Assembly: GCF_000014225.1 (NCBI RefSeq)
Contig: NC_008228.1
Coordinates: 682,001-746,000 of the forward strand
Direction of reading: 5' to 3'
From: Paraglaciecola sp. T6c
GTDB lineage: Bacteria > Pseudomonadota > Gammaproteobacteria > Enterobacterales > Alteromonadaceae
Length of the DNA stretch: 64,000 bases
The notes beneath the pieces are model-generated. The model saw only the letters and a list, made by a program, of their open reading frames with translations. It was not told the origin of the DNA and searched no databases. This document shows, in pieces, positions 11,936 through 15,932 of this stretch. Both the position numbers and the translations under genes were made by a program. Within the stretch, counting starts at the first letter, position 1. Every line of letters begins with the position of its first letter.

Positions 11936-13120
11936 ATGGCAAAAGCAAAGTTTGAACGCACTAAACCGCATGTAAACGTCGGTACAATCGGCCACGTTGA
12001 CCACGGTAAAACCACTCTAACAGCAGCAATTACTACTGTACTAGCAAAAACGTACGGTGGTGCAGCATCTGCATTCGATCAAATCGATAACGCTCCTGAA
12101 GAGCGCGAGCGTGGTATCACAATTTCAACGTCTCACGTTGAATACGATACGCCTACTCGTCACTACGCACACGTTGACTGTCCTGGACACGCCGATTATG
12201 TAAAAAACATGATCACTGGTGCTGCTCAAATGGATGGCGCGATTCTAGTAGTAGCAGCGACCGATGGTCCTATGCCACAAACACGTGAGCACATCTTGTT
12301 AGGCCGTCAGGTTGGCGTACCTTTCATGGTTGTTTTCATGAACAAATGTGACATGGTTGACGACGAAGAATTGTTAGAATTGGTAGAGATGGAAGTACGT
12401 GAATTGCTTTCAGAATATGAATTCCCTGGCGACGACTTACCAGTAATCCAAGGTTCAGCGCTTAAAGCCCTAGAAGGCGAAGAGCAATGGGAAGCAAAAA
12501 TCATTGAGCTTGCAGAAGCCCTTGATAGCTACATCCCAGAGCCAGAGCGTGACATCGACAAGCCTTTCCTACTTCCAATTGAAGATGTATTCTCAATTTC
12601 AGGTCGTGGTACGGTTGTAACAGGTCGTGTTGAGCGTGGTATCGTAAACACAGGTGATGCAGTAGAAATCGTTGGTATGAAAGATACAACGACTTCAACG
12701 GTAACTGGTGTTGAAATGTTCCGTAAATTGCTTGACGAAGGTCGTGCTGGTGAGAACATCGGTGCATTGCTTCGTGGTACTAAGCGTGAAGATGTTGAGC
12801 GTGGTCAAGTACTAGCTAAGCCTGGTTCAATCAACCCACACACTCAATTCGAAGCTGAAGTATACGTACTAAGCAAAGACGAAGGTGGCCGTCATACTCC
12901 ATTCTTCAAAGGTTACCGTCCACAGTTCTACTTCCGTACAACTGACGTAACAGGTGCTGTAGAGCTTCCTGAAGGCGTAGAAATGGTAATGCCTGGTGAC
13001 AACTTGAAATTCGTAGTTGAATTGATTGCTCCTATCGCGATGGACGAAGGTTTACGCTTCGCAATCCGTGAAGGTGGCCGCACAGTAGGTGCTGGCGTTG
13101 TTGCAAAAATCATTGCTTAA
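11936..13120 (+). CDS. tuf: Elongation factor Tu
   Basis: EF-Tu brings aminoacyl-tRNA to the ribosomal A site as a GTP complex. It is 394 aa, the usual length. The GTPase motifs are [10 protein letters not shown] (about 18-27), the effector segment [18 protein letters not shown] (about 81-89) and NKCDMVDD (about 136-143). The domain 2 and 3 sequences are typical, ending [15 protein letters not shown] precedes the ATG. Gammaproteobacteria usually have a second copy elsewhere; only this one is whole here. Its last 15 codons recur 330 bp downstream. Confidence 0.98.
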
Positions 13121-13143
13121 TTACTAGCAAATTGATTTGAAAG

Positions 13144-13169
13144 AAAGGTCACTTCGGTGGCCTTTTTTT
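13144..13169 (+). terminator. Intrinsic terminator of tuf (first copy)
   Basis: AAAGGTCAC (13144-13152) and GTGGCCTTT (13157-13165) form a nine-pair stem capped by a TTCG tetraloop, ending in a run of seven T (13163-13169). It lies 23 nt after the tuf stop. The same terminator occurs again 330 bp downstream. Confidence 0.93.
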
Positions 13170-13176
13170 ATGTCTA

Positions 13177-13281
13177 TACAAAATGGGGTTTAATCCGTCC
13201 ATGGTGATGCGGCCAGCCCGATATCCGTATCGGTCGTTCAACCGGCTGGCGCAGTGCGCCAGAAAGCCTCCGGTTTCACCC
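13177..13281 (+). repeat. Structured repeat unit A
   Basis: The order is: motif I (13177-13214, beginning TACAAAATGGGGTTTAATCC); hairpin 1, CCGATA/TATCGG with a TCCG loop (13218-13233); GTTCA; then hairpin 2. In hairpin 2 an outer stem AACCGG (13240-13245)/CCGGTT (13270-13275) encloses an inner stem CTGGCGC (13246-13252)/GCGCCAG (13256-13262). The unit ends TCACCC, followed here by six T. Unit B repeats the whole order and unit C the second half, with compensatory changes in the stems. The function is unknown; it could be a structured RNA or a REP/MITE-like DNA element. Confidence 0.75.
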
Positions 13282-13315
13282 TTTTTTGTGCCTGCACGTA
13301 TTGTGTGGCTTCAAG

Positions 13316-13395
13316 CGGATTATTCCGTGACAAAATCGTCGGGAACGATTTTGAACATGCGAAGCATGGCCCGTAGGGCGTAGGGCAGGATGCCC
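13316..13395. repeat. Cluster of five short hairpins
   Basis: Consecutive inverted repeats are CGGA/TCCG (13316-13327), AAAATCGT/ACGATTTT (13332-13352), CATGC/GCATG (13356-13368), GCCC/GGGC (13369-13379) and GGGC/GCCC (13383-13395), with loops of 3-5 nt and almost no spacers. No reading frame of interest covers them. They resemble REP/BIME-type palindromic DNA, but I cannot assign them to a named family. Confidence 0.65.
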
Positions 13396-13403
13396 GGAGT
13401 AAC

Positions 13404-13450
13404 GTGGCCGCACAGTAGGTGCAGGCGTTGTTGCAAAAATCATTGCTTAA
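13404..13450 (+). pseudogene. Duplicated 3' end of tuf (15-codon remnant)
   Basis: This stretch repeats the last 15 codons and stop of tuf (13074-13120) with one difference, GCT to GCA at 13423, which is synonymous for Ala. No other part of tuf is present upstream; the preceding bases are unrelated structured DNA. It cannot be expressed as EF-Tu. A silent-only difference suggests it came from a working gene, perhaps a second tuf copy, or arose by a recent tandem duplication. The identity continues through the terminator to about 13513. Confidence 0.85.
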
Positions 13451-13473
13451 TTACTAGCAAATTGATTTGAAAG

Positions 13474-13499
13474 AAAGGTCACTTCGGTGGCCTTTTTTT
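13474..13499 (+). terminator. Second copy of the tuf terminator
   Basis: This is an exact copy of the first tuf terminator, with the AAAGGTCAC stem, TTCG loop and seven T. It follows the orphan tuf tail. It would catch read-through from the first terminator. Confidence 0.85.
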
Positions 13500-13506
13500 A
13501 TGTCTA

Positions 13507-13544
13507 TACAAAACGGGGTTGAACCCGTCCCTGGTGACGCAACT
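13507..13544 (+). repeat. Motif I copy without the hairpins
   Basis: This is a second copy of the roughly 38-bp motif I that begins units A and B: TACAAAACGGGGTTGAACCC, then a GTCCCTGGTGACGC segment. It follows directly on the duplicated tuf terminator. It is not followed by the GTTCA and double-hairpin portion, so it looks like a truncated unit. Confidence 0.65.
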
Positions 13545-13557
13545 AGATGTCACTGTG

Positions 13558-13595
13558 CACAAAGCGGGGGTAATCCTTCCTCAGTGATGGGGCCC
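13558..13595 (+). repeat. Degenerate motif I copy
   Basis: CACAAAGCGGGGGTAATCC, followed by a segment containing CAGTGATGGGGCCC, aligns with the other motif I copies at most positions. It starts 51 bp after the previous copy and lacks the double hairpin. It is the most divergent of the four copies. Confidence 0.55.
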
Positions 13596-13628
13596 GCTTT
13601 TAGAGTGATGTAGCCATATGTAGCTGTG

Positions 13629-13735
13629 TACAAAATGCGGTTTAACCCTTCTCTGGCCACGCGGCCCAGTGCACACATTCATGTGTGCCCGTTCAGTCAG
13701 GCGGCGCAATACGCCTAAATAAACTGACTTCACCC
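13629..13735 (+). repeat. Structured repeat unit B
   Basis: It has the same order as unit A in nearly the same length (107 against 105 nt): motif I (13629-13666); hairpin 1, GCACACAT/ATGTGTGC (13671-13688); GTTCA; then hairpin 2 with outer stem AGTCAG (13695-13700)/CTGACT (13724-13729) and inner pairs GGCG/CGCC; then TCACCC. The stems of A and B differ in sequence on both sides yet still pair. That is the signature of selection on structure, or of insertion of different palindromes into one frame. Confidence 0.75.
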
Positions 13736-13737
13736 AT

Positions 13738-13790
13738 GCCAGTCGTTCAACCAGCTGGTGCGGTGCACCAGAAAGACTCCGGTTTCCTCC
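13738..13790 (+). repeat. Structured repeat unit C (5' truncated)
   Basis: Only the second half of the unit is present: GTTCA, then outer stem AACCAG (13749-13754)/CCGGTT (13779-13784) with one mismatch, and inner stem CTGGTGC (13755-13761)/GCACCAG (13765-13771). Relative to unit A, the inner stem changes C to T on one arm and G to A on the other, which keeps the pair. Confidence 0.72.
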
Positions 13791-13884
13791 TTTGTTAAGT
13801 CTGACAGAAAGCCTAATGTTGCTATCCGGTACGGTAAGTCAGTCTAAGCGCTTAAGCGGAAGCACTTCACTTTCGAAGTTATAG

Positions 13885-13912
13885 GGCTGGTAAAATTACT
13901 AGCCTTTATTTG
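13885..13912 (+). terminator. Terminator-like hairpin before the chemoreceptor gene
   Basis: GGCTGGTAA (13885-13893) pairs with TTACTAGCC (13896-13904), nine pairs with one G-T and closing pairs that must open into the loop. TTTATTTG follows. It ends the repeat region; whether a transcript reaches it is unknown. Confidence 0.4.
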
Positions 13913-14006
13913 TTTGTAGTTGTGTAGAATGGTGTTATGCAATGCGTATCGCTGCCGATACAAATATTAATTCCGCCACACTCTTCAACGTCCTAAAAGA
14001 GCACCG

Positions 14007-15932
14007 ATGAAACAGTTGTCCATAAAGCAAAAAATTATTTTCACTCTGAGTATCTTCGTATTGTTAACCTCTACATTAGTAGGCGGTATCAGCATGATGA
14101 CCGCTCGCACCACGATCGAGGATCGTGTACTTGGCACAGAGTTACCCAACATTGTTAAGCGGATCGCAAGTGAAATTGACGGCAAAATAACAGCCATGCA
14201 AATTATCGCTACTCAAATTGCGACAGATCCCTTTATTCTGCAATGGAACGAGCAAGGGCAATCAGCAGAAGGTGAGAAACTCCTTGTTCAGTTATTGCGA
14301 AATACCGTGAGTCAGCACAACTTGAGTGCTGCTTCGTTTGCGGACAAACAGACGAATCGTTACTGGAATCAAGAGGGTTTTCTGCGCACTTTAAAAGACG
14401 ATACGGCTGATGGTTGGTTTTTTAAATACATCCAAAGTAAACGAGCCGATATGGTCAGCGTTTATCGAGATCCAAATACGGGTAAAACAGATTTGTTCGT
14501 AAACTATCAGCAAGCCAATGGAAGGGGGTTATCTGGTACCGCTAAGTCCTTTAAAGACGTTGTCGATTTGCTCGCAAGTTTTAAGTTAGAAGCATCGGGT
14601 TTCGTTTATTTGGTTGATGATCAAGGGCTGGTTCGACTTCATACTGAAACAGGACTGATTAATAACGCCAACCTAGATGCCTTATATGGCAATGGGAATG
14701 GGACCAGCTTACTAGAAAAAAACGACTTTAATCTAGCCACTGTAAAGATGAAAAATACCAAAATGCTCGTCGTAAGCAGTTATATACCCAGCATGAATTG
14801 GTATGTCGTGGCCCAAGTACCGTACAACGAAATATTCGCTACCTTAGACAATGCAGTATGGAATATTACGCTCTGGTCAATTCTAATTGCAGCAATAGCC
14901 TGTTTGGCCGCGTGGTTCGTCGCTACCAGCATTACGCGGCCCATCAATGAACTTGCAGGCGTCTTTAAAAAATTAGGAACAGGGAACGCGGATCTTGCTT
15001 ATCGCTTACCTGAAACGGGTCAAAAGGAATTAGCAGATGTTGCAAAGGGCTACAACGATTTCGTTAATCAATTAGATATGACGTTTAGTGACGTAATGCG
15101 AAATAGTATAGCGCTTAAAGATGTCGCGCGTTCATTACAAAATATCGCCGGCCAAACCTTAGAAAGTGCGCAACAAAGCGATGAGCACACTCAAGATATA
15201 TCGATGAATCTAAGTCAGGTGAGCAGTGCAGTAAGTGAAGTGGCAAAAAGTGCTGAATCTGCAACGGTGGTGGCGGTGCAAATCAATTCTGAAGGAGATC
15301 AAATATCTCAGGTTATCACTAACACCCAGCAAGATATTAATGGATTAGTGACTAAGATAAACGATGTGGCCGAGGTCATTCGTTCACTGAGCAATAACAC
15401 GGACACCATTGCTAAAGTACTGGAGAATATTCAAGCTATTTCCGATCAAACGAATCTACTCGCGTTGAATGCCGCTATTGAGGCGGCGCGAGCGGGAGAG
15501 CAAGGTAGAGGCTTTGCTGTGGTAGCAGATGAAGTTCGCACGTTAGCGAAACGAACGGCAGACTCTACTCATGAAGTGCAAGCGATTATGCAAGAGCTCA
15601 AGGTGACCTCGGCATCAGCAACTAAAGAAATCACCTCGATAATTGAGCAATCTCAAGTTACTGCTAGCTCCATAGGAACCGCCCATCAGGTTCTAGAGGC
15701 AAATAGTTCACATTTTAATGACATAACTCAAGCCAATCGGTCTGTAGCTGCGGCGACAGAAGAGCAGTCCGTTAGTATCGAGTTGATAAATCGTAATATG
15801 CAAGACATCAGAAAGCGCTCTGGGGAGAATATGCAAAAGATTGCTCAGATGGCAGATGAGTCAGGTGGACTAAATGCATTGGCACAACAGTTGGACGCGT
15901 TAACGCATCAGTTCAGCAAAGGTAAACGCTAG
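14007..15932 (+). CDS. Methyl-accepting chemotaxis protein
   Basis: This is a membrane chemoreceptor that controls CheA through CheW. In the 641 aa product, a first membrane segment lies near residues 9-31 and a periplasmic sensor domain of the double Cache type follows ([18 protein letters not shown] is Cache-like). A second membrane segment lies near residues 288-310, followed by a HAMP linker beginning [16 protein letters not shown] and a long coiled-coil signalling domain. The hairpin tip with [16 protein letters not shown] and [16 protein letters not shown] lies at about residues 480-515. There is no C-terminal CheR-tethering pentapeptide. The ligand cannot be told from sequence. No other chemotaxis genes are nearby. 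Confidence 0.95.

Follow-up and report, generated by a model that had tools for sequence, protein, structure and literature searches.

What are the hairpin-bearing repeats that follow the tuf gene of Paraglaciecola sp. T6c, and how did they come to lie there? The window, i.e., the whole 64,000-nucleotide stretch of DNA that was analysed, is C1:682001-746000 within the 5.19-Mb, one-contig genome of this organism. The tuf gene (elongation factor Tu; an ORF of 394 aa, product read from sequence) occupies window positions 11936-13120 on the + strand, as do all features listed here. It is followed at 13147-13169 by a terminator hairpin, GGTCAC-TTCG-GTGGCC with a T tract, which is visible by eye though absent from the computed scan output. 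The first repeat, unit A, spans 13170-13281 (left end estimated), with a covariance-model core at 13192-13281 (101.9 bits) and a right junction at 13281|13282, at CC|TTTTTT. At 13318-13405 lies a second structured element, F2, which resembles the tRNA-linked repeats (TLRs) of Escherichia coli and whose 3' end, GGAGTAAC, abuts a copy of the tuf 3' end. This copy, at 13401-13540, is a 140-nt direct repeat (95% identity) of 13071-13210 and comprises the 3' end of tuf, its terminator and the start of a unit; it is absent from the earlier note on this locus. A 5' remnant consisting of motif I only is found at 13507-13544 (79% identical to unit A over 38 nt), and a further lone motif-I piece at 13557-13594 (66% identity). 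Unit B lies at 13629-13735 (model core 13644-13735, 77.5 bits), and directly behind its TTCACCC end starts unit C at 13738-13790, the 3' half of one unit (core 13743-13784, model positions 43-84 only, 35.1 bits). The order of B and half-C is also present in two related genomes, G006 and G007, and a clean duplication is not seen at this step in the window. Elsewhere in the window, positions 47-103 match the Rfam P26 sRNA above its gathering score.

We refer to the family that includes units A, B and C as F1. Its core is ~90 nt long with three hairpins, or ~115 to 130 nt including a 5' leader. Hairpin 0 (TGG..CCA) comes first, followed by hairpin 1, whose loop is of the ATCCnTG type and whose stem changes freely; the fixed unpaired motif CGTTCA then precedes hairpin 2, built of two stems, outer and inner, with a bulge on the 3' side, and the unit closes with TTCACCC, exact in 143 of 227 copies. 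The stems that the earlier note had named are present on re-reading the sequence: outer AACCGG/CCGGTT, inner CTGGCGC/GCGCCAG and hairpin 1 CCGATA/TATCGG in unit A; outer AGTCAG/CTGACT and hairpin 1 GCACACAT/ATGTGTGC in unit B; and inner CTGGTGC/GCACCAG in unit C. Its claim that the stem differences are compensatory also holds, and such changes are numerous. In a MAFFT alignment of 20 copies, made without use of structure, the three-hairpin structure pairs 89.9% of cells and shows double changes in 15 of 25 pairs. Covariation is 0.428. The shuffles give 0.148 ± 0.014 (0 of 500 as high), a level that kinship among the F1 sequences can by itself beat, and sliding the partners yields no more than 0.155, a comparison that favours the structure because it was drawn by inspecting the same 20 copies. 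Of five measures, that of further pair types does not exceed the shuffles, 213 of 500 of which are as high. On 133 model matches the covariation is 0.534 compared to 0.157, values that are model-fitted and include the seed copies, and single-copy folding in eight copies is mildly better than shuffles (z of -1.1 to -2.4). Hairpin 0 is the weakest, with 79.8% of cells paired and a double change in one of five pairs. The three hairpins are thus shown to be maintained by compensatory change, hairpin 0 least.

Some copies depart from this plan. Chimeric copies at L013:148-235 and L027:1906-1995 carry the 5' half of one subtype and the 3' half of another, joined close to ATCCATG or CGTTCA; hairpin 1 is broken in the L013 copy. 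A nested insert, made up of a hairpin xxAAC..GTTxx and an ATCC-loop hairpin, sits within ATCC-type loops, namely in the hairpin 1 loop at L008, L009, L015 and L020, and upstream of F1 at L087 and L095; its stem varies between copies, with ATAAC/GTTAT in some and GCAAC/GTTGC in one other.

Further copies in related genomes had been set beforehand as a test of the claim of structure, and they were found in all 22 genomes of the genus, with 1 to 39 copies each. Searches with a covariance model (R1) found 133 matches among 70 of 181 sources and a further 94 among another 60, overlapping loci being excluded. F1 is present in 33 of 60 genomes of a sample of relatives, the T6c genome included, and across the order in 20 of 295 genomes (E≤1e-4), a search whose stricter filters may miss weak copies. 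A strict pattern scan of named species genomes returned 21 stretches, 15 of them in Alteromonadaceae, including Paraglaciecola, Aliiglaciecola and Bowmanella; the six single matches in unrelated groups are taken as chance. The T6c genome itself has 32 matches (E≤1): 12 at rrn operons, 5 at the two tuf genes, 6 at tRNA genes (tRNA-Ser, tRNA-Leu and tRNA-Phe) and 9 elsewhere. Three of the rrn placements (C1 positions 41559, 41877 and 1207767) rest on flanks resembling 5S and on an ORF that runs antisense to 23S; contexts were read for all of the matches but C1:384829, which is counted with the last class. The repeats are therefore not specific to tuf, where 5 of the 32 matches lie; F1 is a fast-evolving interspersed family of Paraglaciecola and other Alteromonadaceae.

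A family scattered in this manner can be examined for traces of insertion. For each of the 227 F1 copies we asked whether the DNA on its 3' side recurs within the 350 nt upstream (score of at least 12); 219 had enough flank, 8 being dropped, and 130 are array-terminal. A re-copied flank is found in 32 of the 130 terminal copies, compared to 7 of 650 pairings with the upstream DNA of other loci. The last copies of arrays contribute 21 of 50 (control pairings, 13 of 500) and single copies 11 of 80 (14 of 800). Since tandem duplication could mimic re-copies at array ends, it is the single copies that carry the argument. A clear re-copy is absent in 98 of the 130 terminal copies and in 69 of the 80 single ones, which may be explained by the age of the copies.

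The junctions share a common form. The 3' end of F1 is fixed (ACC|C), mostly as TTCACCC, and at least CC is common to both sides in 10 of 11 single copies and 28 of 32 overall. Most re-copies start at CC, often in a stem-loop gene, which for tRNAs means the T-arm in the sense orientation and the D-arm or acceptor in antisense, and their length ranges from ~11 to >118 nt: ~11 to 14 nt at tRNA-Ser, ~65 at tRNA-Leu, 78 at 5S and >118 elsewhere. A target duplication of fixed length, by which a MITE would be recognised, was not found among these copies; the lengths vary. Of 205 copies, 17 are truncated 5' and 9 are truncated 3', a mild bias that is indecisive as a signature of retroposition.

By our own grouping there are ~11 distinct targets, to which related species contribute related loci. 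Sense tRNA targets are the T-arms of tRNA-Arg and tRNA-Leu(UAA) and the T-stem of tRNA-Leu(CAA); opposite-strand targets are the D-arms of tRNA-Phe and tRNA-Ser and the 5' side of tRNA-Ser(GGA). The remaining targets in this grouping are 5S at two points, the tuf terminator, a CRISPR repeat and a CGTC-type REP, the tuf and CRISPR targets having been recognised by eye, outside the scored list. Other F1 copies were targets as well. Some re-copied pieces come from the antisense strand or from sequence of other kinds. At L099 (G204:C12:87406-88163), an F1 array ends a CRISPR array, and its units contain part of the CRISPR repeat, which we take to be type I-F-like. The REP target is presumably of the CGTC class (PMC3733652).

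Comparison of related loci reveals filled and empty sites. At tRNA-Ser(GGA), G012 is filled and G015 is without an element, and the DNA downstream agrees at 148 of 150 nt; on the other side identity is confined to the tRNA (~100 nt), past which the DNA is unrelated. The G012 site has ~114 nt added plus an 11- to 14-nt repeat, consisting of the tRNA end plus AAA, with two mismatches, and part of hairpin 1 and CGTTCA are missing from its F1 copy through an internal deletion. Inspected by eye, 10 of 17 tRNA-Ser(GGA) loci have no element within 190 nt and 7 have one, from 23 loci fetched, 6 of which were off the anchor pattern. At tRNA-Leu(CAA) (9 fetched, 3 off pattern), elements are found in G017, G001, G019 and one G016 copy; the second G016 copy is element-free and followed by other gene-like DNA. 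G014 was rejected as an empty tRNA-Leu site, as it holds the 5' piece of an element. The duplication of ~65 nt at G017 tRNA-Leu(CAA) ends just beyond the terminator T tract, and that of 78 nt at 5S likewise ends shortly past a T tract. In the window, unit A lies between the terminator stem and TTTTTTGTGC, at a site where G006 and G007 read GCAGCC|TTTTTTGTGC, with GCAGCC|TTTTTT at the position of the tuf terminator. After this junction G007 has an ungapped identity of 77/100 to the window, as low as this because it diverges after ~70 nt.

These sequence comparisons suggest that F1 is probably a short non-coding mobile repeat with a TLR-like insertion footprint, a reading to which we give a probability of about 0.68. 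In such an insertion, a nick or break at a target CC would receive the 3' end of F1, while the variable 5' end would be joined further downstream, and the stretch between the two sites would be duplicated as a result. If F1 encodes nothing, trans factors would have to carry out the insertion. Recognition of folded single-stranded DNA, or of RNA that is copied into DNA, during mobilisation would account for the retention of the hairpins. Arrays may grow through repeated insertion or tandem duplication, and gene conversion may keep the copies alike between the two tuf genes and among several rrn operons; transcripts of the tuf and rrn copies, if any, would be a read-through by-product. A fixed 3' end combined with a variable duplication length is the trace that target-primed copying would leave.

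Template switching during replication is the main alternative to target-primed copying. It would dispense with dedicated mobility: template switching at hairpins, together with unequal crossing-over and gene conversion among multicopy loci, would generate the whole pattern. The targets can form hairpins, 10 of 11 single-copy junctions have CC in common, and the chimeric F1 copies switch at ATCC or CGTTCA. The F1 arrays at tRNA-Ser have an exact 138-nt period, array ends account for 21 of the 32 re-copies, and near-identical units are found at both tuf genes and likewise at three rrn operons, all of which fit this explanation. Chance microhomology is, however, not expected to produce one fixed 3' end at unrelated targets, and single elements occur at targets that are element-free in relatives. 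We consider this explanation rather unlikely.

Insertion of a mobile repeat also has to be weighed against a role as RNA. F1 could be a regulatory sRNA that arises when rrn, tuf and tRNA transcription reads through, with the re-copied gene end kept as a processing site. Its structure is conserved, and F1, flanked on both sides by a copy of the 5S or tuf terminator, is placed as described for RrA, RrB and RrF of E. coli (PMC8144298). However, several insertions are antisense to tRNA (Ser and Phe), and some F1 copies are opposite in strand to genes read as nusG and rplK. The strand itself can be questioned, since G-U is expected to be commoner than A-C among mismatched cells if a given strand is selected as RNA. 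Over distinct helix patterns the ratio of G-U to A-C in F1 is 93:82. By helix it is 20:16, 22:11, 21:39 and 30:16, hairpin 1 and the inner stem, each alone, leaning to G-U; after removal of one badly aligned inner pair it is 70:79, and in the 90 best-scoring rows 24:32. A tRNA control taken from the fetched loci gives 15:0, a fixed-position count over the acceptor and T stems of 24 distinct CCA-ending tRNAs from 44 found, several of which are one tRNA in different species and one of which is from E. coli. Because G-U is not favoured over A-C, selection on a sense RNA is not shown, and we see it as not visibly favoured; a DNA role is not proven by the same ratio, as decay of dead copies would likewise drive it to 1. 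The structure conserved in F1, which the earlier note took to be that of RNA or DNA, is thus not necessarily one of RNA.

The RrA, RrB and RrF RNAs bind Hfq and CsrA in vitro (PMC8144298). GGA motifs are scarce in the sense cores of F1, with a mean of 0.56 (n=184) compared to 3.0 on the antisense strand, which also speaks against the sRNA explanation, and a CsrA sponge on the sense strand was rejected on this ground. A promoter scan of F1 found 0 where 1.1 were expected, too few to inform. All told, an sRNA as the explanation of F1 appears unlikely.

A REP-like or MITE-like nature of F1, with movement by a resident transposase, e.g., RAYT, is improbable: it is short, palindromic and multicopy, with CGTTCA fixed and unpaired ahead of hairpin 2, but G000 (the T6c genome), G002 and G006 have no match to Y1_Tnp (Y1 transposase) despite 31, 36 and 31 F1 copies, respectively, the core is ~90 nt rather than 20 to 40, the duplication length is variable, and inverted-repeat pairs of at least 12 nt, the lengths that the scan covered, shorter pairs lying outside it, are absent at 12800-14400 of the window. 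A RAYT-mobilised REP was rejected for the T6c genome, which has no Y1_Tnp; across the 25 genomes searched, 14 have such a match. We know of no standard bacterial transposase that a variable duplication length fits.

Nor does a search for reverse transcriptases single out a partner for the mobile repeat. No retromobility reverse transcriptase was found in G000, and the sole PF00078 match there is a defence protein, the DRT2 antiviral reverse transcriptase at locus L188 (G000:C1:2076616). The other PF00078 matches are a DRT1a in G002 and group II intron reverse transcriptases in G006 and G007. A dedicated reverse transcriptase for F1 was rejected, there being no type common to the four genomes examined.

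How does F1 relate to named repeat families? In Rfam 15 no match to F1 reaches the gathering threshold, either in the window or in five loci of the T6c genome searched at E≤5; the best overlapping match in those five loci is DnaX, with 21.4 bits compared to a threshold of 35. A literature search in a library of PMC papers found no report of the family. REPs are, like F1, short palindromic multicopy repeats often located 3' of genes; those of the GTAG and CGTC superfamilies are 20 to 40 bp long with a GTAG or CGTC tag (PMC3733652). F1 differs in its ~90 nt and three hairpins, and in a T6c genome without RAYT.

The closest known counterparts of F1 in layout are the E. coli TLRs, with no detectable homology. 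They were described in 1978, include RtT/rttR and RrA/RrB/RrF, and are still without known function according to a 2021 paper. Like F1, they are structured units 3' of tRNA or 5S genes, with the 3' end joined to a copy of the gene 3' end, and they form tandem arrays. The copy at MG1655 tyrT begins in the T-arm, GAGTAAT|CCTTCCCCCACCACCA, with its join at TAAT|CC; F1 is joined to tRNA-Arg of G050 at that position, GAAT|CCTTCCAC. Of the 32 F1 matches in the T6c genome, 18 lie at tRNA genes or rRNA operons, where TLRs are found, and 14 at tuf or elsewhere. The TLR gene-end copies are 18 to 19 bp (PMC8144298), whereas those of F1 are ~11 to >118 nt, and F1 is found also at tuf, in a CRISPR array, at REPs and in antisense tRNA arms. 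No match of RtT to F1 was found at E≤5 in five T6c loci. An HMM of TLRs, built from five MG1655 tyrT segments that all have tRNA ends and one of which is the tyrV tRNA gene itself, revealed no homology to F1; its best E was 0.092, to a tRNA. The statement that no named family has such a layout is thus correct as far as Rfam goes for sequence and fold, but not for layout, which is that of the TLRs.

The second element of the window, F2 (13318-13405), may be nearer to the TLRs than F1 is. By eye it resembles the E. coli TLR 3' region: a hairpin, CCCGnAGGGCG, a hairpin and GAGTAA. F2-like sequences are present in many loci, including L002, L007, L056, L095, L140, L145 and L215. F2 abuts DNA like the tuf 3' end in the window, L002, L007 and L145, and DNA like a tRNA end in L056; the G050 example ends GTAAT|CC and is followed by tRNA-end-like DNA. 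As the TLR HMM did not detect F2, this link is only a lead.

SINEs, the eukaryotic target-primed retroelements, are non-coding, with a fixed 3' end, a variable 5' end and a target duplication of variable length, and target duplications >60 nt are unusual among them. F1 resembles them in all four of the former properties and differs in its long duplications and in that the search turned up no partner reverse transcriptase. It is conceivable, if doubtful, that F1 and the TLRs are two branches of one general and undescribed bacterial insertion process akin to SINE retroposition. A structured element would be copied and its 3' end fixed onto a CC nick in a folded target, such as a tRNA, 5S, terminator, REP or CRISPR repeat, with a variable stretch of the target duplicated. 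One search of the PMC library found no precedent for a SINE-like element in bacteria. If true, such a process would explain the gene-end repeats of the TLRs.

Even apart from this wider process, F1 bears on how repeat families of this kind are read. Covariation in such families can stem from selection for mobility and not for a cellular RNA. F1 combines duplicated target DNA with several unrelated targets and a site at which a relative lacks the element, so that the TLR layout is explainable as an insertion footprint and hence testable; F1 further suggests a link between structure and insertion at tRNA, 5S and CRISPR loci.
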